From an uncultured Spirochaetaceae bacterium (GTDB taxonomy: Bacteria > Spirochaetota > Spirochaetia > Sphaerochaetales > Sphaerochaetaceae), in assembly GCA_944389115.1 (NCBI GenBank), contig CALXLE010000090.1, forward strand, positions 1 to 53,595: 53,595 nucleotides of DNA. The letters are read 5' to 3'. Below, one piece after another: positions 26,303 to 39,812 of this stretch (within the stretch, counting starts at the first letter, position 1; the number at the start of each line of letters is the position of its first letter). The notes below the pieces were generated by a model. The model was not told the DNA's origin. It saw only the letters and a program-made list of their open reading frames with translations, and ran no database searches. Position numbers and translations under genes: made by a program.

Positions 26303-26395
26303 CTAGCCCAATATGCCAATGACGTGCGAAAGCATGCCATACTCAGAAAGAGAAAGGCATACAACGAAAAGCATGCAGAACGCCTCTGTTCTCAT
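26303..26395 (-). CDS. Small hydrophobic ORF upstream of the Lon-like gene
   Basis: A 30-codon frame with AGGAG five bases before its ATG. The middle is hydrophobic (FCMLFVVCLSLSEYGMLSHV), enough for one membrane span. Its TAG directly adjoins the AAGGAGG of the Lon-like gene, so translation of the two would be coupled. It could be a small membrane protein or a leader peptide. No family is recognised, and short frames like this occur by chance, but the good ribosome site and exact placement support it. Confidence 0.4.
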   Translation of the reverse strand: MRTEAFCMLFVVCLSLSEYGMLSHVIGILG

Positions 26396-29029: not shown

Positions 29030-31105
29030 TCAGACATAGAAGAGGATTTCAGAATATGTAGGAACAGGCCATGAGGATTTATCAGCAAATGTCTCAAGTT
29101 CATCGCTGATTCTCCTCGCAGCTTCCATTGCAGGGATAATCCTGTCAGCTGCATAGAAGGCGGCCTTCTCTGTCTCCTCCGGGCTTGCTGCAACGCATTC
29201 ATCGAGCTCATCGGTCTTGAGCATCAGCTCATCACAGAGCGAGCTGACCTTCGCGCAGAGAGCCTTGTCCGCATTGGCGGCAACGCCTATGCTCTCCTTG
29301 GTCTGTACAGAAGAAGCCAGGGATGCGGAGAAGCGGAGCGAAGCCGGGAGAATCTGCCTCCTCAGCATCTCGATCATCGTGACGGCCTCGATATGTATTG
29401 CCTTCTGATACTCATCAAGCGATATCTCGAGTCTGGATTCCATCTCCTCCTTCGTATATATCCTGTGCCTTCTGAAAAGCTCCACATTCTTGCCGTCGCA
29501 GTAATGGACAAGGGCATCAGGGGTTCTCTTGTAGTTCGAAAGTCCCCTTCTCTCTGCCTCAGCCTCCCATTCCTTGCTGTAGCCATTTCCGTTGAAGAGT
29601 ATTCTCCTGTGCTTTTCCAGCTCCCTTTTTATCAATGCGTTCAGTGATGCATTGAAGTCATCGGAGCCCTCAAGCTCATCGCAGAAATCCTTCAGAGCAT
29701 CGGCCACTGCCGTATTCAGCATGACATTGGTACATGCGATGTTGAATGATGAGCCGGGCATGCGGAACTCGAACTTGTTGCCGGTGAATGCAAACGGGCT
29801 CGTCCTGTTCCTGTCCGAGTTATCGCGGGCAAGCTTAGGAAGGACGCTTGTCCCGATATCAAGACGGGAGGATGATGTCCTGCCTTTGAATGGCTTATCC
29901 TCGATGATCGATTCGATTACCGATTCAAGCTCATCTCCTACGAATATCGATACGATTGCAGGAGGTGCCTCGTTTGCTCCAAGCCTGTGATCGTTACCAG
30001 CGCTGGCAACACTTATACGCAGCAGATCCTGATACTCATCGACAGCCTTTATTACGGCCGTCAGGAAGAGAAGGAACTGTGCATTATCCTTCGGGGTCTT
30101 TCCCGGATCAAGGAGGTTCTCACCCTCATCTGTGCTGAGAGCCCAGTTGTTGTGCTTTCCCGATCCGTTGATGCCCTCAAAGGGTTTTTCGTGGAGGAGG
30201 CATGCAAAGCCATGGCGCTCAGCAACCTTCTTCATCATCTCCATCGTAAGCTGGTTCGCATCGGTTGCCTTGTTGGCATTGTCGAAGATCGGAGCCATCT
30301 CATGCTGGCAAGGGGCAACTTCGTTATGCTCGGTCTTCGCTGTTATGCCAAGCTTCCAGAGCTCCTCATCGAGATCGGCCATGAAAGCCTTGACCCTGGG
30401 CCTGATAGAGCCGAAATAGTGATCCTCCATCTCCTGGCCCTTCGCAGCAGGGGCGCCAATAAGCGTCCTTCCAGTAAGCCTGAGATCGAGACGCTTCTGA
30501 TAGTCGCTCTTGTCGATGAGAAAATACTCCTGCTCGGCACCGATGGTGGCATTCACTCTCTTCACATGCTTACCGAAGAGCGCAAGCGTCCTTACAGCTT
30601 CACTGCTTATCGCATCCATGCTCCTCAGAAGCGGTGTTTTCTTATCGAGGATCTGGCCCGTATATGAGCAGAAAGCAGTGGGGATGCAGAGCGTATCATC
30701 CTTGATGAAGGCATAGCTTGTCGGATCCCATGCAGTATAGCCACGCGCCTCAAATGTCGCCCTGAGACCACCGGATGGGAAGCTGGATGCATCGGGCTCG
30801 CCCTTTGTCAGCTCCTTTCCGGAGAAATCCATTATGACGCAACCGTTCTTGTCTACTGTCAGGAAGCTGTCATGCTTCTCGGCTGTTATTCCTGTCATCG
30901 GCTGGAACCAATGGGTAAAATGCGTTGCGCCCTTGCTTACTGCCCATTCCTTCATCGCGGATGCCACGATATCAGCAACATCCTCATCGAGAGCCTTTCC
31001 TTCCAGCATGGTATTATGCAATGACTGATATACCTTTTTCGGAAGCATTTCCCTCATTACTTGATCGTTAAAGACCATCGAGCCAAACATCTCAGGTACG
31101 TTCAT
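29030..31105 (-). CDS. glnN: Glutamine synthetase type III
   Basis: A 691-residue GSIII, which makes glutamine from glutamate, ammonia and ATP and forms large double-ring oligomers. Diagnostic blocks are VNATIGAEQEYFLID, TAKTEHNEVAPCQHEMAPIF, LLHEKPFEGINGSGKHNNWAL, GNDHRLGANEAPPAIVSIF and KFEFRMPGSS, all present. Length is normal for the type, much longer than GSI. AGGAGG lies six bases before the ATG. It is the third gene after glnA and the ANTAR gene, with an 11-base gap, so it should share the glnA leader. Confidence 0.96.
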   Translation of the reverse strand: MNVPEMFGSMVFNDQVMREMLPKKVYQSLHNTMLEGKALDEDVADIVASAMKEWAVSKGATHFTHWFQPMTGITAEKHDSFLTVDKNGCVIMDFSGKELTKGEPDASSFPSGGLRATFEARGYTAWDPTSYAFIKDDTLCIPTAFCSYTGQILDKKTPLLRSMDAISSEAVRTLALFGKHVKRVNATIGAEQEYFLIDKSDYQKRLDLRLTGRTLIGAPAAKGQEMEDHYFGSIRPRVKAFMADLDEELWKLGITAKTEHNEVAPCQHEMAPIFDNANKATDANQLTMEMMKKVAERHGFACLLHEKPFEGINGSGKHNNWALSTDEGENLLDPGKTPKDNAQFLLFLTAVIKAVDEYQDLLRISVASAGNDHRLGANEAPPAIVSIFVGDELESVIESIIEDKPFKGRTSSSRLDIGTSVLPKLARDNSDRNRTSPFAFTGNKFEFRMPGSSFNIACTNVMLNTAVADALKDFCDELEGSDDFNASLNALIKRELEKHRRILFNGNGYSKEWEAEAERRGLSNYKRTPDALVHYCDGKNVELFRRHRIYTKEEMESRLEISLDEYQKAIHIEAVTMIEMLRRQILPASLRFSASLASSVQTKESIGVAANADKALCAKVSSLCDELMLKTDELDECVAASPEETEKAAFYAADRIIPAMEAARRISDELETFADKSSWPVPTYSEILFYV

Positions 31106-31115
31106 GATATTCCTC

Positions 31116-31667
31116 CTATGATAATTCCCTTATAATGCCCACCGCGGCATCTTCCAGGCTTATGCGGCAGTTCATTGCCTTCTTCTCAATATAGCTATGG
31201 GCTTCTGCCTCGCTCATGCCCCTTCTGCCAGCAAGAAGGCACTTGGCCTCTGTCAGCAGCTTCTCATTCTTAAGCCGGAGAAGAAGCTTTCTGTTCTTCT
31301 CCTCAACCTTCAGGATCTTCTCCCTGGCAACGCTGATTGCTCCCAGTACGGCAGAGAAACTATCCCTGCTTGATCCAGAAACGTACACACCCTGCTTCAT
31401 CATAATCGCAGCCATATGCGAGGAGAGCTCATCCGGCACGATGAGAACCGTATCTGCATCCATGGATGCTGCGAATACAGCGGTATCCTTCGAAGCGCTT
31501 CCTGGAAGCATCGCATCGACGATGACAAGAGATAGCTGGAAATCAAGGAGCTTCATCCTTGCCTCCTTTTCGCTTTCCGCCCTTATGAATGCGTATCCGC
31601 CAGGCCGGAAGAGCCTTTTTATCTCATCGCATCGTGCACGTTCTGCGACCACTAGCACCGTTTCCAT
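31116..31667 (-). CDS. ANTAR-domain antitermination regulator with receiver-like N terminus
   Basis: A 183-residue protein. Residues 1-120 look like a receiver fold with Asp51 in VIVDAML, but the usual N-terminal acidic pair and late Lys are not evident, so it may be a pseudo-receiver. A coiled-coil (residues ~118-135) leads into the ANTAR domain near 130-182: NEKLLTEAKCLLAGRRGMSE then AEAHSYIEKKAMNCRISLED. ANTAR proteins bind paired hairpins with six-base loops (A at 1, G at 4) and block terminators. It lies between glnA and glnN, like clostridial NitR-type regulators beside glnA. The three leaders described here are its likely targets. Confidence 0.88.
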   Translation of the reverse strand: METVLVVAERARCDEIKRLFRPGGYAFIRAESEKEARMKLLDFQLSLVIVDAMLPGSASKDTAVFAASMDADTVLIVPDELSSHMAAIMMKQGVYVSGSSRDSFSAVLGAISVAREKILKVEEKNRKLLLRLKNEKLLTEAKCLLAGRRGMSEAEAHSYIEKKAMNCRISLEDAAVGIIRELS

Positions 31668-31676
31668 AAAAATACC

Positions 31677-32963
31677 CTATATGAATCTGAAATACCTGCT
31701 GATCAGATAGTCATGATTCCTTCCATTTCTTTCGTACTCCACGGCCTCCGAAGCCCTATCCTCCAGATATCCGGAAACAATCCGCTCCGGAATGACCTTA
31801 TGGATGAAAGCGCTTCGCTCCGACTCCGCCACCGCCTCGGAAAGGCTTGCTGGGAGCCTTTCCGAAAGCGGCGAGGAAAGCATATCACCTGCCGCTTCCG
31901 GTTCTGCTTCAAGACCATCTGCGATGCCTTCAAAGCCCGCAGACAGAAGAAGGGAAATAAGGAGGTATGGATTGGCGGCAGGATCGGGGCTTCTGACTTC
32001 CATACGGCAGTCATGGCCTTCTGCTGATGGTATTCTGATGAGAGTTGATCTGTTCTGATGGCTCCACGATATTGTCGATGGCGCCTCAAACTGTCCCAGT
32101 CTCTCGTAGGATGATACAAGCGGATTGGCAAAGGATGTCATCTCCTTCATTCTCCTGAGAATACCTGACATGAACGACATGGCCTTGGGATCCTCTCTCT
32201 CAAAGAGATTCTCCTCATTCTCATAGAGTGACAGATTCATATGCAGGCCATTCCCGCTCTCATTCTCCAAGGGCTTTGGAAGGAATGAGGCGAAAAGCCC
32301 ATGCTGCTGGGCTATAGCCTTGACAGCGGTCTTGAATGTCATAAGATCATCGGCCGCCTTCAAAGGAGAGGAACAGCGGAAATCTATCTCATTCTGCCCA
32401 GGTCCGTGCTCATGATGGCTACGCTCAGGCTTCAATCCCATGTTCTCCAGAGCAAAGCATATTTCACGCCTGACGTTCTCTCCTCTATCAAGAGGAGCAA
32501 TATCGAAATAGCCAGCCTCATCAAAAGGCGTGAGCGTCGGGAAGCCCTTCTCATCTGTCTCAAAGAGGTAGAACTCACATTCAGGACCGACAAGGAATGA
32601 GTATCCTGATTTCCCGCTTTTCTTCTCTATCTCGGAAAGGAGGTATCTCACATCTCCTTCAAAAGGTCTTCTGTCGGGGTACGTGATGTAGCAGTAGAAC
32701 CTGGCAACGGCCCTGTCCGAAGGTCTCCATGGAAGCACGGAAAATGTATCAAGGTCAGGGAAAAGCAGCAGATCGGACTCGCTGATATTGAGAAAGCCCT
32801 TTATCGCGGAAGCATCGAATGAGACACCATGCAGTACCGCATGCTCGAGCTCATCGGCCATTATCGCAATATTCTTCTGTCTGCCGGAGATATCGCAGAA
32901 GGCAAGGCGGATGAACTTGATCTCATACTCCGCCAGCAGTTCTCTGATATCCTTTAAGTCCAT
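31677..32963 (-). CDS. glnA: Glutamine synthetase type I-like
   Basis: About 428 residues. Catalytic blocks seen are VGPECEFYLFE, SHHEHGPGQNEIDF, NESGNGLHMNLSL and STLIRIPSAEGHDCRMEVRS. It makes glutamine from glutamate and ammonia. ATG 32963 is chosen: AGGAGG-like GGAGG lies five bases upstream, and the apparent 31-residue N-terminal extension is the translated RNA leader with its terminator. The adenylylation-site loop of enterobacterial GlnA is not recognisable. First gene of the glnA-ANTAR-glnN operon; expression is probably controlled by antitermination in the leader. Confidence 0.93.
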   Translation of the reverse strand: MDLKDIRELLAEYEIKFIRLAFCDISGRQKNIAIMADELEHAVLHGVSFDASAIKGFLNISESDLLLFPDLDTFSVLPWRPSDRAVARFYCYITYPDRRPFEGDVRYLLSEIEKKSGKSGYSFLVGPECEFYLFETDEKGFPTLTPFDEAGYFDIAPLDRGENVRREICFALENMGLKPERSHHEHGPGQNEIDFRCSSPLKAADDLMTFKTAVKAIAQQHGLFASFLPKPLENESGNGLHMNLSLYENEENLFEREDPKAMSFMSGILRRMKEMTSFANPLVSSYERLGQFEAPSTISWSHQNRSTLIRIPSAEGHDCRMEVRSPDPAANPYLLISLLLSAGFEGIADGLEAEPEAAGDMLSSPLSERLPASLSEAVAESERSAFIHKVIPERIVSGYLEDRASEAVEYERNGRNHDYLISRYFRFI

Positions 32964-32981: not shown

Positions 32982-33063
32982 AAAAAGCGCCGCAGATACA
33001 TCAATCTGCAGCGCCCTTGCTGTCCATGGCTGAATATTAGGAAAACCAGGACGCAATAGTCAA
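32982..33063 (-). promoter_or_regulatory. glnA leader: promoter, ANTAR-type hairpin and terminator
   Basis: Promoter TTGACT (33063-33058), 18 bases, TAATAT (33039-33034), giving a start near 33027. Hairpin P1 is CAGC-AAGGGC-GCTG (33022-33009), six-base loop with A1 and G4. The terminator stem uses GCGC of P1, then GCAGAT/ATCTGC and GCGC, ending in TTTTT (33014-32982). P1 and the terminator exclude each other. A second canonical ANTAR loop is not evident: the terminator loop is TGATGT. Confidence 0.7.
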
Positions 33064-33116: not shown

Positions 33117-33198
33117 TTGACAAGCGTCATCCATCTGTCGTAAAAGAACCTCAGAGAACAAGGACGTTCTAAGAAAGATCTTAGTGCGTCCTTTTTTT
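33117..33198 (+). promoter_or_regulatory. Glutamate synthase operon leader: promoter, ANTAR tandem hairpins and terminator
   Basis: Promoter TTGACA (33117-33122), 18 bases, TAAAAG (33141-33146), start near 33153. P1 is GAAC-AAGGAC-GTTC (33156-33169). Directly after it, P2 is TAAG-AAAGAT-CTTA (33170-33183). Both loops have six bases with A1 and G4, the ANTAR rule. The terminator pairs AGGACG (33161-33166, mostly the P1 loop) with CGTCCT (33187-33192) and ends in T7. P1 and terminator are mutually exclusive. Confidence 0.78.
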
Positions 33199-33216: not shown

Positions 33217-34311
33217 ATGAAGAAGGAAGGAGAAGTCAGGATCAGTTCAGGGTGTGCGATCAGTGGCATATTCTGCAGGGACGGCAGACGCATCACCGGC
33301 GAGGCAATCAAGAAAAGCATTGCCGTAATGCACAACAGATCGAATGGCCTTGGCGGAGGTTTCGCTGCTTATGGGATATACCCTCAGTACAAAGACTACT
33401 TCGCCCTGCATATATTCTATGAATCACAGGCTGCAAGAGAGGAGACGGAGAGATTCCTTGATAAGCGCTTCGACATAATAAACCTCTCTAAGATACCAGT
33501 AAGGCAGACGCCAAGAATCTCGGATGCACCGCTGATCTGGCGCTACTTCATCACCCCGCTCCCACACCTCCTCCAGGACAGCCAGCTCGATGAGGACGAA
33601 TACACATCCAGGGCAACAATCAGGATAAATGATTCGATTACTGGGGCGTACGTTGTCTCCTGCGGTAAGGATATGGGGGTATTCAAGGCTGTTGGATACC
33701 CGGAGGATGTCGCTGATTTCTACAGGATCGAGGAGTATGAGGGCTATTCCTGGACAGCGCACGGGCGCTATCCGACAAACACGCCAGGATGGTGGGCAGG
33801 CTCCCATCCATTCTCTCTTCTCGACCTTACTGTCGTCCATAATGGGGAGATATCATCATACGACGCGAACCGCAGAGCTGTTGAAATGTATGGCTACTCA
33901 TGCAATCTGCTGACAGACACAGAGGTCATTACATACATACTGGACTACCTGACAAGGAAGCAGGGGCTTTCCCTCAAGGAGTGCTCAGAGGTCATTGCTG
34001 CTCCATTCTGGACAACGATTTCCATCAAGGATGAGGAAGAGAAGAAGAGGCTTTCATATCTGAGGAAGATGTTCTCATCGTTCCTGATCACCGGACCGTT
34101 CTCGATCCTTGTCGGATTCAGGGGCGGAATGATGGCACTCAATGACAGGCTGAAGCTCAGGAGCCTTGTCGCTGCGGAGAAAGGAAACACAGTCTACTTC
34201 AGCTCGGAGGAGGCTGCGATAAGGGTCATCGAGGAGAATCCCGACAGAATCTGGGCACCGCGCGGAGGAGAAGCTGTGATTGTCACACTAGATAAGGAGG
34301 CAGGAAGATGA
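33217..34311 (+). CDS. Glutamate synthase, archaeal-type glutaminase (GATase II) subunit
   Basis: About 364 residues. The class II amidotransferase opening is SSGCAISGIF, with the candidate nucleophilic Cys near residue 11 rather than position 2, so a short propeptide would have to be removed, as in relatives of this family. It also contains MHNRSNGLGGGFAAYGIYP, WTAHGRYPTNTPGWWAGSHP and TVVHNGEISSYDANRRAVE. It releases ammonia from glutamine for the synthase subunit. ATG 33217 is chosen for its GGAGG; it follows a leader terminator. It overlaps the next gene in ATGA. Confidence 0.88.
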   Translation: MKKEGEVRISSGCAISGIFCRDGRRITGEAIKKSIAVMHNRSNGLGGGFAAYGIYPQYKDYFALHIFYESQAAREETERFLDKRFDIINLSKIPVRQTPRISDAPLIWRYFITPLPHLLQDSQLDEDEYTSRATIRINDSITGAYVVSCGKDMGVFKAVGYPEDVADFYRIEEYEGYSWTAHGRYPTNTPGWWAGSHPFSLLDLTVVHNGEISSYDANRRAVEMYGYSCNLLTDTEVITYILDYLTRKQGLSLKECSEVIAAPFWTTISIKDEEEKKRLSYLRKMFSSFLITGPFSILVGFRGGMMALNDRLKLRSLVAAEKGNTVYFSSEEAAIRVIEENPDRIWAPRGGEAVIVTLDKEAGR

Positions 34312-35792
34312 GGAGATACAGAATCAGGAAGGATGAGAGCTGCATCTCATGCCTCAGATGCGTGTCTGAATGCTCATTCGGAGCAATCGAGAAAGGAACG
34401 GATAGATCACTGGTTTTCCATCATGACAAGTGCACTGACTGCCAGCGCTGCGTCTCATTCTGTCCGACGGGAGCTATATACATAATGGAGGACGAGAACA
34501 GATTCAGGCAGAACTCTGTATTCAGGGAGGATGACATACGGGAGATACTCCTGCAGGCTGAGACAGGAGGCGTTCTCCTTTCATCCATGGGAGCATCTGG
34601 GAAAAGCGTGCCAATCTACTTCGACAAGCTGCTTCTCAATGCAAGCCAGGTCACAAATCCATCGATTGATCCTCTGAGGGAACCCATGGAAACCGCTGTT
34701 TTCCTGGGACAGAGGCCCGAGGGGATACAGCGTGACCAGAATGGGAATATCGTAGACAATCTTCCCCCGCATCTGGAGCTCAAAACCCCGATAATGTTCT
34801 CAGCGATGAGCTATGGTGCAATAAGCCTTAATGTCCATAAAGCGCTTGCAGCTGCAGCAGAGGAGCTTGGCACATACTGGAATACGGGCGAAGGCGGTCT
34901 TCATGAAAGCCTCTATCCATATAAGGAAAACACTATCGTCCAGGTTGCCTCAGGGCGTTTCGGAGTCCACGGAACATACCTCAATACAGCTGCGGCTATC
35001 GAGATAAAGATAGGACAGGGAGCAAAACCGGGTATAGGTGGACATCTGACGGGAAAGAAGATCATAGGAGATGTCTCGAAGACTAGGATGGTACCAGAGG
35101 GGCTTGATGCTATCAGCCCTGCCCCGCATCACGATATCTACTCGATAGAGGATCTTGCCCAGCTTGTCATGTCGATAAAGGAAGCTACGCACTATACGAA
35201 GCCTGTAATCGTGAAGGCCGCAGCGGTGCACAATATCGCACCGATTGCTTCAGGAATAGCCCGGAGCGGTGCGGATATCATCTCGATTGACGGCTACAGG
35301 GGCGGAACTGGAGCTGCCCCGAAGCGCATCCGAGACAATGTCGGAATCCCGATAGAGCTTGCAATCGCAGCAGTCGACCAGAGACTCAGGGAAGAGAGAA
35401 TAAGGGATAGAGTCAGCATCATAGCATCGGGAGGAATCAGGAACTCATCGGATGCGGTCAAGGCGATAGCACTCGGAGCCGATGCCGTCTCAATCGGGAC
35501 AGCAGCACTATGCGCGCTTGGCTGCCATATCTGCGCATCCTGCCATACAGGGCGATGTGCATGGGGACTTGCGACGCAAGATCCTGTGCTCACAGGAAGA
35601 CTTGATCCAGAAAAAGGCGCAGCGCGGCTTGTGAATCTCGTGAATGCATGGACACGGGAGATCAAGGAGATCATGGGAGGAATGGGAATAAACAGCATCG
35701 AAGCCCTGAAAGGCAATCGCCTAGCACTCAGAGGAGTCGATCTCAATGCGAAAGAACTGGAAGTTCTTGGAATCGGATATGCAGGAGAATGA
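34308..35792 (+). CDS. Glutamate synthase, archaeal-type FMN/Fe-S synthase subunit
   Basis: A 494-residue enzyme that joins ammonia and 2-oxoglutarate to give glutamate, using FMN and iron-sulfur clusters. Residues 1-65 hold two ferredoxin clusters (CISCLRCVSECS, CTDCQRCVSFCP). The catalytic barrel includes FSAMSYGAISLNVHKALAAA, TGEGGLHE, KIGQGAKPGIGGHL, SIDGYRGGTGAAPK and IASGGIRNSSDAVKAIALGA. Near residue 408 is the Cys cluster CHICASCHTGRCAWG. Electrons could come from a ferredoxin or a separate reductase, neither encoded here. Second gene of the operon. Confidence 0.93.
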   Translation: MRRYRIRKDESCISCLRCVSECSFGAIEKGTDRSLVFHHDKCTDCQRCVSFCPTGAIYIMEDENRFRQNSVFREDDIREILLQAETGGVLLSSMGASGKSVPIYFDKLLLNASQVTNPSIDPLREPMETAVFLGQRPEGIQRDQNGNIVDNLPPHLELKTPIMFSAMSYGAISLNVHKALAAAAEELGTYWNTGEGGLHESLYPYKENTIVQVASGRFGVHGTYLNTAAAIEIKIGQGAKPGIGGHLTGKKIIGDVSKTRMVPEGLDAISPAPHHDIYSIEDLAQLVMSIKEATHYTKPVIVKAAAVHNIAPIASGIARSGADIISIDGYRGGTGAAPKRIRDNVGIPIELAIAAVDQRLREERIRDRVSIIASGGIRNSSDAVKAIALGADAVSIGTAALCALGCHICASCHTGRCAWGLATQDPVLTGRLDPEKGAARLVNLVNAWTREIKEIMGGMGINSIEALKGNRLALRGVDLNAKELEVLGIGYAGE

Positions 35793-35793
35793 G

Positions 35794-36486
35794 ATGAAGG
35801 AATTTGATATCAGAAAAGATGGTCATAAGGAGATTATGGTAACGGACTGCCTTGGAGAGAGATATATCGGCTGCGGCATGAAGGACGGGATCCTACATAT
35901 CAAGGGGACGCCTGGCAATGCGCTTGCATCATATCTCGATGGAGGTACGGTGTATGTCGATGGCAATGCCCAGGATGCGGCTGCCGATACGATGAATGCC
36001 GGTCTTCTTGCGATAAAGGGCTCTGCAGGTGATGCCCTTGCATATGGCATGCGCGGAGGTCGGGTCTATGTTCTTGGAGATGCAGGATACAGAGCAGGAG
36101 TCCATATGAAGGCATATGAGGACAAGAAGAGCATCCTTGTCATCGGAGGCAGAGCAGGATCATTCCTTGGAGAATACCTTGCAGGAGGCATCATAATCGT
36201 CCTTGGTCTCGGCTGTGAGGGAAAGAGCATAACAGGTTATTTCTGCGGAAATGGCATGTATGCAGGAACAATCTACCTCAGGACGGACAAAGTCCCCCTC
36301 AACCTCTCCGACAAGCTCATCCGGAGAAATGTCAGTAATGAGGAGAAGGACAGTATCCTCAGCCCCATCATTTCCGATTATGCATCTGTCTTCTCCATTT
36401 CCGCAGAGGATTGCCTCAAGGGAAGCTTCATCGCAATCGAGGCTGACAGATCCAAATCATACAGCCAGCTCTATGCTGCAGTCTGA
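35794..36486 (+). CDS. Glutamate synthase, GXGXG (alpha3) subunit
   Basis: About 230 residues forming a right-handed beta-helix like the C-terminal domain of large bacterial GltB, here a separate gene. Repeats with G at fixed spacing are visible: GGTVYVDGNAQDAAADTM, LAIKGSAGDALAYGMRGGRV and GGIIIVLGLGCEGKSITGYF. It is structural and helps the ammonia tunnel and domain contacts. ATG 35794 is used: AGGAG lies about eight bases upstream and the start is one base after the previous stop. Confidence 0.88.
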   Translation: MKEFDIRKDGHKEIMVTDCLGERYIGCGMKDGILHIKGTPGNALASYLDGGTVYVDGNAQDAAADTMNAGLLAIKGSAGDALAYGMRGGRVYVLGDAGYRAGVHMKAYEDKKSILVIGGRAGSFLGEYLAGGIIIVLGLGCEGKSITGYFCGNGMYAGTIYLRTDKVPLNLSDKLIRRNVSNEEKDSILSPIISDYASVFSISAEDCLKGSFIAIEADRSKSYSQLYAAV

Positions 36487-36494
36487 GGTGCTAT

Positions 36495-38081
36495 ATGTGT
36501 ACAGTATTTGCTTATAGTGGGTCTGCTATCGGACTACCACAGATCAGAGGAATCCTTGAAAGGACACATAGAAGAGGTCCTGATGCTGAGAGGATCATCA
36601 TGCCAGAGAAGGATGTCTACCTTGCCTTCCAGCGGCTCTCGATAATGGGCGTCGATGAAAGGGGGATGCAGCCATTTGAATACAAAGGGAAGTACAGTAT
36701 AACGAACGGTGAAATCTACGGCTTCCGTTCAATCCGCGAGGAGCTTGAGAAGGAAGGCTATATCTTCCACTCAGATTCTGACTGCGAGACAATCCTGTAT
36801 CTCTACGAGAAGCACAGGGAGAAGATGTTTGCTCTCCTCGATGCTGAATATGCGACAGTCATCTATGATAAGGACGATGGATTCATAGCAGCACGCGACC
36901 CGATAGGCATCCGTCCTCTCTTCTATGGCTATGACAGAAATGGAATGATCGCATTCGCAAGCGAAGCATGTCTTCTAACCCCATTCTGCAGCAATGTGCT
37001 GCCCTTCCCTCCCGGCCACTACTGGAAACAAGGGGAGTTCATCTGCTACAGGGATATCTCGAAAGTGCAGGAATATGTTCATGGCAGCGAGGGTGAGATA
37101 GCCGGAAACATACGTGACAAGCTCATAAAGGCCGTTGAGAAGCGTCTTGATTCCGACACGCCTGTGGCATTCCTGCTATCTGGAGGTCTTGACAGCTCCC
37201 TTGTCTGCACGATTGCATCAAGAATCCTCGGGAAGCCCATACGCACATTTTCCATCGGGATGGACAGGGATCCGATAGATTCAAAATATGCAGAACGTAC
37301 CGCAACGTTCCTCGGTTCGGTACATACCAACGTCACGATGACGGAAAAGGATGTCATCACAGTCCTCCCTGAGGTCATAGAAGCACTTGCCACCTATGAC
37401 ATAACAACAATCAGGGCAAGCATCGGAATGTATCTCCTATGCAGATATATCCATGAGAACACCGATGTCAGGGTATTGCTGACGGGAGAGGTCTCCGATG
37501 AGCTCTTCGGATACAAATACACCGATTTCGCCCCAGATGCGGAGGCATTCGAGAAGGAAAGCCAGAAACGGGTGCATGAGCTTTATGCCTATGACGTCCT
37601 TAGGGCAGACAGATGCATTGCCGACAACAGTCTTGAGGCAAGAGTTCCCTTCGGCGATCTCGATTTCGCGTCATATGTACTTTCAATCGATCCAGAGATG
37701 AAGATGAATCGCTCAGGACATGGCAAGTTCCTTCTCCGCAAGGCATTCGAAGGCGGGAACTGGCTCCCTGATGATATCCTCTGGAGGGAGAAGGCGGCAT
37801 TCAGCGATGCTGTAGGACACAGCATGGTAGATGACCTCAAGGCTTATGCTGAGAAGCACTATGAGGGCAGGGATCTGGAAGCTGAATACAGGAAATACCC
37901 GGAGAATGGCAGGCCCTTCACCCCTGAATCGCTCCTGTACCGAGAGATATTCGAGAGCTTCTACCCTGGACAGCACAGGATGATACCCGGCTTCTGGATG
38001 CCGAACAGCAGCTGGCCAGGATGCCAGGTCTCGGACCCTTCCGCAAGGGTATTGTCAAACTACGGCAAGAGCGGAGAGTGA
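36495..38081 (+). CDS. asnB: Asparagine synthase (glutamine-hydrolysing)
   Basis: A 528-residue enzyme that makes asparagine from aspartate, glutamine and ATP. It starts MCTVFAYSG, with Cys2 as the glutaminase nucleophile after Met removal, then THRRGPDAE, SITNGEIYGFRSIREEL and SDCETILYLYE. The ATP-pyrophosphatase half has the P-loop FLLSGGLDSSLV near residue 227 and LLTGEVSDELFGYKY near 332. GAGGTG lies upstream. It ends the glutamate synthase operon, so its expression would share the ANTAR-type leader. It consumes glutamine like its neighbours. Confidence 0.95.
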   Translation: MCTVFAYSGSAIGLPQIRGILERTHRRGPDAERIIMPEKDVYLAFQRLSIMGVDERGMQPFEYKGKYSITNGEIYGFRSIREELEKEGYIFHSDSDCETILYLYEKHREKMFALLDAEYATVIYDKDDGFIAARDPIGIRPLFYGYDRNGMIAFASEACLLTPFCSNVLPFPPGHYWKQGEFICYRDISKVQEYVHGSEGEIAGNIRDKLIKAVEKRLDSDTPVAFLLSGGLDSSLVCTIASRILGKPIRTFSIGMDRDPIDSKYAERTATFLGSVHTNVTMTEKDVITVLPEVIEALATYDITTIRASIGMYLLCRYIHENTDVRVLLTGEVSDELFGYKYTDFAPDAEAFEKESQKRVHELYAYDVLRADRCIADNSLEARVPFGDLDFASYVLSIDPEMKMNRSGHGKFLLRKAFEGGNWLPDDILWREKAAFSDAVGHSMVDDLKAYAEKHYEGRDLEAEYRKYPENGRPFTPESLLYREIFESFYPGQHRMIPGFWMPNSSWPGCQVSDPSARVLSNYGKSGE

Positions 38082-39736: not shown

Positions 39737-39812
39737 AAAAAACGCCTACTCCTGAAAAGAATAGACGTCCTTGTCTTCAGCTGATTATATTGCTTCAGTC
39801 TGTTTTCCTCAA
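39737..39812 (-). promoter_or_regulatory. pyrG leader: promoter, ANTAR-type hairpin and terminator
   Basis: Promoter TTGAGG (39812-39807), 17 bases, TATAAT (39789-39784), start near 39777. P1 is AGAC-AAGGAC-GTCT (39776-39763), loop with A1 and G4, beginning at about +2. The terminator ACGTCTATTC / GAGTAGGCGT (39768-39742, one T-G pair) ends in T6 and uses the 3' arm of P1, so the two exclude each other. No second canonical six-base ANTAR loop is clear. Confidence 0.65.

Follow-up and report, generated by a model that had tools for sequence, protein, structure and literature searches.

Does the leader of a glutamate synthase (gltS) operon in an uncultured spirochaete carry a full tandem ANTAR motif, as a preliminary description of its sequence proposed, or does its switch depend on one hexaloop hairpin? 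Leaders with two hexaloops, the A1/G4 rule for their loops, limits on the linker between them and a link to glutamate synthase are already known (PMC3369931). For EutV, both hexaloops were required in vivo, eut linkers span 5–12 nt and a linker of 3 nt fails (PMC3369931), and linkers of 2–25 were used in actinobacterial ANTAR predictions (PMC8164766). The requirement for both hexaloops conflicts with the crystal structure, in which the ANTAR dimer grips one hexaloop at a time. Walshe 2022 (PMC8934654) redefined the minimal site as one hexaloop, yet maintained that antitermination needs both; how often leaders use a single hexaloop was left open there. We analysed the whole stretch of 53,595 nucleotides that holds the leader (hereafter the window), together with related leaders in Spirochaetia and Clostridia. 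The closest named relatives of the source organism are mostly Candidatus Ornithospirochaeta, uncultured Spirochaetaceae or Spirochaetales, and two metagenome-assembled genomes (MAGs) with Treponema-type names.

Architecture of the gltS leader

The gltS leader contains the following elements.
33117..33146, + strand: predicted sigma-70-type promoter of the gltS operon (from sequence; 90 of 104 related leaders have a comparable promoter 5–16 nt ahead of P1)
33156..33169, + strand: P1, a hairpin GAAC-AAGGAC-GTTC with a hexaloop, proposed to bind ANTAR and to act as antiterminator (stem covariation, A1/G4 loop)
33160..33198, + strand: intrinsic terminator whose 5' arm, AAGGACG, is the P1 loop plus G (folds, conserved pairing)
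33170..33183, + strand: P2-like hairpin TAAG-AAAGAT-CTTA, most likely the upper stem-loop of the terminator (loop length and A1 vary)

P1 consists of GAAC (33156–33159), the loop AAGGAC (33160–33165) and GTTC (33166–33169), and the P2-like hairpin of TAAG (33170–33173), AAAGAT (33174–33179) and CTTA (33180–33183) follows with 0 nt between them. These letters, the AxxGxx loops and the zero gap are exactly as previously described. The terminator pairs AAGGACG (33160–33166) with CGTCCTT (33187–33193) and runs into U's up to 33198; its 5' arm is indeed mostly the P1 loop, and positions 33170–33183 most likely form its upper stem, in line with the earlier placing of the second hairpin at its tip. 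The minimum-energy fold of the leader is the terminator (−20.3 kcal/mol, z −4.7). Without the terminator 3' arm, the RNA folds as two small hairpins, P1 and the P2-like one.

The promoter candidate comprises TTGACA (33117–33122), an 18 nt spacer and TAAAAG (33141–33146). It places the predicted start at ~33153, 3 nt before P1, in agreement with the proposal that the element begins within a few bases of the transcription start. A simple promoter and terminator scan of the + strand, run with strict rules, found nothing; it missed this promoter because the final T is absent from the −10 box. A promoter of the same type is recognisable in 98 of the 104 related leaders, and in 90 of these 98 P1 starts 5–16 nt past the −10 box.

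Scanning both strands of the window for tandem A1/G4 hexaloops gave 5, where 40 Markov shuffles predict 1.0. The gltS site is the only such pair followed by a T-run, for which the expectation is 0.05. Searching Rfam with the whole window at the gathering threshold, and with six leader loci at a permissive E-value, yielded no family that fits.

Conservation of P1 and its competition with the terminator

A covariance model of the terminator form was built and used for scanning. The collection comprises 104 distinct leaders, in which the scan itself partly imposed the loop pattern and stem of P1. Over an alignment of 34 leaders, the P1 stem, whose columns lie outside the search pattern, is 98.5% paired, with 32 double changes and compensatory changes in three of its four pairs; columns slid by 1–3 positions as a control are at most 43% paired. 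The loop reads AANGRC, with A1 and G4 present, in every leader of the alignment. It can pair with the terminator 3' arm, and the two covary; the arm pairing is 95.4% conserved, a value obtained from a set picked in part by a pattern that includes the arm. Consistently, in gltS leaders of the genus the P1 loop shifts together with the terminator 3' arm (AAGGACG/CGTCCTT, AAAGGCG/CGCCTTT and AAGGGCG/CGCCCTT). In 30 leaders from Clostridia, which are independent of model building, the three top, innermost P1 pairs each hold in at least 29. On this comparative evidence, P1 is a genuine A1/G4 hexaloop and is mutually exclusive with the terminator.

Deeper members of the genus (G030, G013 and G021; loci L029–L031) have no P1 before gltS and carry an AGGC-AATGAC-GTCT hairpin with a terminator on the opposite strand.

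Neighbouring genes and further copies of the element

The leader precedes a four-gene operon and lies opposite a divergent operon with the order GSI-ANTAR-GSIII.
33217..34311, + strand: amidotransferase-type subunit of glutamate synthase, first gene of the operon (Pfam GATase_2/GATase_6)
34308..35792, + strand: glutamate synthase subunit with the FMN/ferredoxin domain (Pfam Glu_synthase, 1e-137)
35746..36486, + strand: glutamate synthase GXGXG subunit (Pfam GXGXG, 3e-25)
36495..38081, + strand: asparagine synthase, in the glutamate synthase operon (Pfam Asn_synthase, 8e-70)
31677..32963, − strand: GSI-type glutamine synthetase, leading the divergent operon (Pfam Gln-synt_C; start at 32963 from the ribosome-binding site and homologues)
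31116..31667, − strand: ANTAR protein of 183 aa with receiver-like domain, coiled coil and ANTAR domain (PF03861; AF2 model)
29030..31105, − strand: glutamine synthetase type III, glnN (Pfam GSIII_N)

Two further attenuators of this kind are found in the window.
32982..33022, − strand: second attenuator, before glnA-ANTAR-GSIII, with P1 CAGC-AAGGGC-GCTG at 33022–33009 (40.6 bits)
39737..39776, − strand: third attenuator, before pyrG (CTP synthase), with P1 AGAC-AAGGAC-GTCT and a terminator (TATAAT at 39789–39784; attenuator conserved ahead of pyrG in relatives)

In the glnA attenuator the P1 loop and 3' strand make the terminator 5' arm, and there is no second A1/G4 hexaloop. Its stem differs from that of gltS, and the form CAGC-AARGGC-GCTG recurs before glnA as a homologous element in the window and in relatives. 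Since this attenuator stands before glnA-ANTAR-GSIII, the ANTAR protein would control its own gene. Elsewhere in the genome P1 and a terminator precede amtB, and in relatives they precede asnB, GSIII and amtB. Overall, model matches lie before amtB, GSIII, glnA, asnB, pyrG, a gltD-like gene (L192) and a few transporter genes; the amtB product at L132 (G000:C42) is an ammonium transporter fused to P-II, with Pfam matches to both. Many relatives carry a pyrG leader of the P1 type; in seven others the ANTAR gene is immediately followed by pyrG instead. CTP synthesis thus seems to be linked with the nitrogen regulon. Most of the Clostridia leaders listed stand before GSIII, and some others before amtB and glutamate synthase.

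At L131 and L137 (G000:C135 and G032:C4), a short reading frame comes after a P1 attenuator, and in the sister species a lipoprotein-like gene with no Pfam match follows it. A weak model match, GAAC-AGAGGC-GTTC (22.9 bits), lies at 26348–26394 on the − strand, within a possible 30-codon reading frame 5' of an unannotated gene of 229 aa.

The ANTAR protein and its co-occurrence with the leader

The ANTAR gene is unique in the genome assembly and lies 1.5 kb from the gltS leader. Its ANTAR domain scores 47.6 bits against PF03861, for which the curated cut-off is 27.3. The AF2 model (pLDDT 93) comprises a receiver-like domain, a long helix (coiled coil) and two ANTAR helices, with the three-helix ANTAR fold following the coiled coil, and its best PDB matches are Rv1626, EutV (also in the RNA-bound form) and AmiR. 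The protein retains the EutV contact residues K149, E160 and M172 but not R142 or K147; in place of Y164 it has His, as AmiR does. A conserved receiver pocket of the EutV type was not found: the phospho-acceptor Asp is present in the window protein and is N, E or V in several relatives. The protein thus looks AmiR-like, and because the phospho-acceptor varies among relatives, its input is probably something other than phosphorylation.

ANTAR genes and leaders occur together in two phyla. Among 347 Spirochaetia genomes, the model matched in 63 of 82 with an ANTAR gene and in 5 of 265 without one (Fisher 1e-45, uncorrected for ancestry); among 391 Clostridia genomes, it matched in 67 of 196 with and 3 of 195 without (Fisher 1e-19, likewise uncorrected for ancestry). 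Gene and leader are jointly absent in G019, G020 and G026. The remaining 129 of the 196 ANTAR-bearing Clostridia genomes gave no match at the strict threshold, so the other ANTAR proteins must either act on different targets or have targets that escape the model.

The Candidatus Avitreponema avistercoris and Candidatus Treponema faecavium MAGs (L156 and L164) encode an ANTAR protein 67% identical to that of the window and carry the same leaders; these MAGs may belong near Ornithospirochaeta.

One hexaloop or two

An A1/G4 hexaloop is present in the terminator tip of 18 of the 104 leaders, comprising 15 gltS leaders of one clade and 3 others. The leaders of glnA, GSIII, amtB and asnB lack a second such loop nearly everywhere. 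Two tandem A1/G4 hexaloops exist in the gltS leader of the window, but the second is not conserved as a hexaloop across the regulon, and the designation "full tandem ANTAR motif" lacks support. Nor did we find a separate recruitment hairpin further upstream: within 60 nt 5' of P1, the 104 leaders contain 6 hexaloops against 4.4 expected, no excess over shuffles. Because upstream hexaloops are at chance level and P1 begins so close behind the predicted −10 box, a classical free upstream hairpin is unlikely to be transcribed. The earlier assignment to the ANTAR-type attenuators stands as far as a genuine A1/G4 P1 is concerned, but the hairpin called P1 takes the place of the classical P2, and the free upstream P1 is missing. 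The overlap is reversed relative to the dual-hexaloop rule: here it is the upstream hairpin that supplies the terminator 5' arm, while its downstream partner sits inside the terminator, a departure from published leaders that had been correctly recognised.

We judge it likely that the gltS leader is a single-hexaloop ANTAR attenuator. The alternative that comes nearest is a compact dual site, in which an ANTAR dimer would bind both P1 and P2 in the gltS clade while P1 overlaps the terminator. An exact AxxGxx match is seen for P2 both in the window and among 15 of the 23 short-tipped gltS leaders, both hexaloops are required by EutV in vivo, and the tip of the pyrG leader in G045 (L052, another family) can form CAGGA-AAGGAU-UCCUG. 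In the remaining 8 of the 23, however, the P2 loop has another length or has lost A1, while the six-base P1 loop stays constant. The usual P2 loops, AGAGAU and AGUGAU, can be read as a GNRA tetraloop closed by an A-U pair, and they usually fold in this way (6 bp plus a GNRA-like tetraloop), and in G017 A1 is replaced by G, which still pairs with U6. This pairing argument is weakened by a classical dual-hexaloop leader in G081 (another family of the class; L168, − strand, about 190–262), and it was never used alone. That leader precedes eut-like genes, and its neighbours include a kinase-like gene and an ANTAR gene whose product has a full receiver; its short-linker dual motif carries AAAGAU in the second hairpin, so this loop can be a real ANTAR site. 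Its recovery also indicates that the scan is able to detect dual motifs. Against a dual site in the window stand the scarcity of P2 hexaloops in the rest of the regulon, including the glnA leader of the same genome, and the linker of 0 nt, outside both the eut range and that of the actinobacterial predictions. We consider the dual site unlikely. The P2-like hairpin is probably the upper part of the terminator rather than an ANTAR site, although it may have an ANTAR role in the window species, given its fit to AxxGxx and the AAAGAU loop shared with G081.

An attenuator of the same shape might instead be read by another RNA-binding protein or a metabolite. The 5 Spirochaetia and 3 Clostridia genomes with a model match and no detected ANTAR gene would fit such a reader, which we regard as very improbable in view of the strong co-occurrence in two phyla, the joint absences, the ANTAR gene inside the regulon and a hexaloop of the same A1/G4 type as in known ANTAR sites. 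Short A1/G4 hairpins arise often by chance, at about one tandem pair per 54 kb, and an ordinary terminator arm could happen to fall in one. To such a coincidence we give almost no credence: the covariation of the P1 stem refutes it, and the recurrence before nitrogen genes and the tight promoter-to-P1 distance speak against it as well.

Discussion

Comparative sequence shows that P1 exists and that it and the terminator exclude each other, and it establishes the regulon and the co-occurrence with ANTAR genes. For a single-hexaloop attenuator we infer where transcription starts, that ANTAR binds and antiterminates, in which direction control runs and what signal is read. Transcription would start about 3 nt before P1, and P1 would fold first. 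An active ANTAR protein (31116–31667), bound to the P1 hexaloop, would bar AAGGAC from pairing with CGUCCUU and so allow readthrough into the glutamate synthase-asnB operon. When no ANTAR protein occupies P1, its loop and 3' strand would be drawn into the terminator, and transcription would stop about 45 nt in. ANTAR would not require the P2-like hairpin as a site. Because glnA-ANTAR-GSIII, pyrG and amtB stand behind the same element, they form one glutamine/nitrogen regulon with gltS.

Somewhat more cautiously, we favour the view that glutamine metabolism (GS, GOGAT, AmtB, AsnB and CTP synthase) is governed across Spirochaetia and Clostridia by a large uncatalogued class of ANTAR attenuators, each with one hexaloop only, right at the 5' end of its RNA. 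If so, the EutV model's recruitment hairpin can be dispensed with. The element also defines for spirochaetes and clostridia a concrete nitrogen regulon that includes CTP synthase and is predicted to be autoregulated. Natural single-hexaloop leaders, set against the natural comparison offered by the dual leader of G081, would provide a direct way to test the conflict between one and two hexaloops. In the literature searched, which took in few subscription papers, we found no description of single-hexaloop attenuators or of spirochaete ANTAR leaders; such an element would tend to escape the dual-hairpin models on which published ANTAR searches relied.

The single-hexaloop attenuator would thus be a widespread variant of the known ANTAR switch, with no Rfam match. 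With the EutV/AmiR/NasR leaders (Ramesh 2012, PMC3369931) it shares an ANTAR protein, a six-nucleotide A1/G4 loop, a hairpin exclusive with the terminator and control of nitrogen genes including glutamate synthase. Those leaders have two hexaloops, whereas here most leaders have one and no separate recruitment hairpin; the RNA opens with the terminator-overlapping hexaloop, whose loop is itself the terminator 5' arm. It is also in keeping with the single-hexaloop minimal site of Walshe 2022 (PMC8934654), with the difference that both hexaloops were held necessary there, whereas nature appears to use one here. NitR of Clostridium saccharobutylicum, an ANTAR antiterminator controlling GS/GOGAT (Stutz 2007, as cited in PMC6316151), is probably of the same functional kind, as far as that secondary account goes. 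The BglG/LicT RAT antiterminators follow the same logic, in which one protein-stabilised hairpin excludes the terminator (comparison in PMC3369936), but their protein and RNA recognition are unrelated to the ANTAR system.
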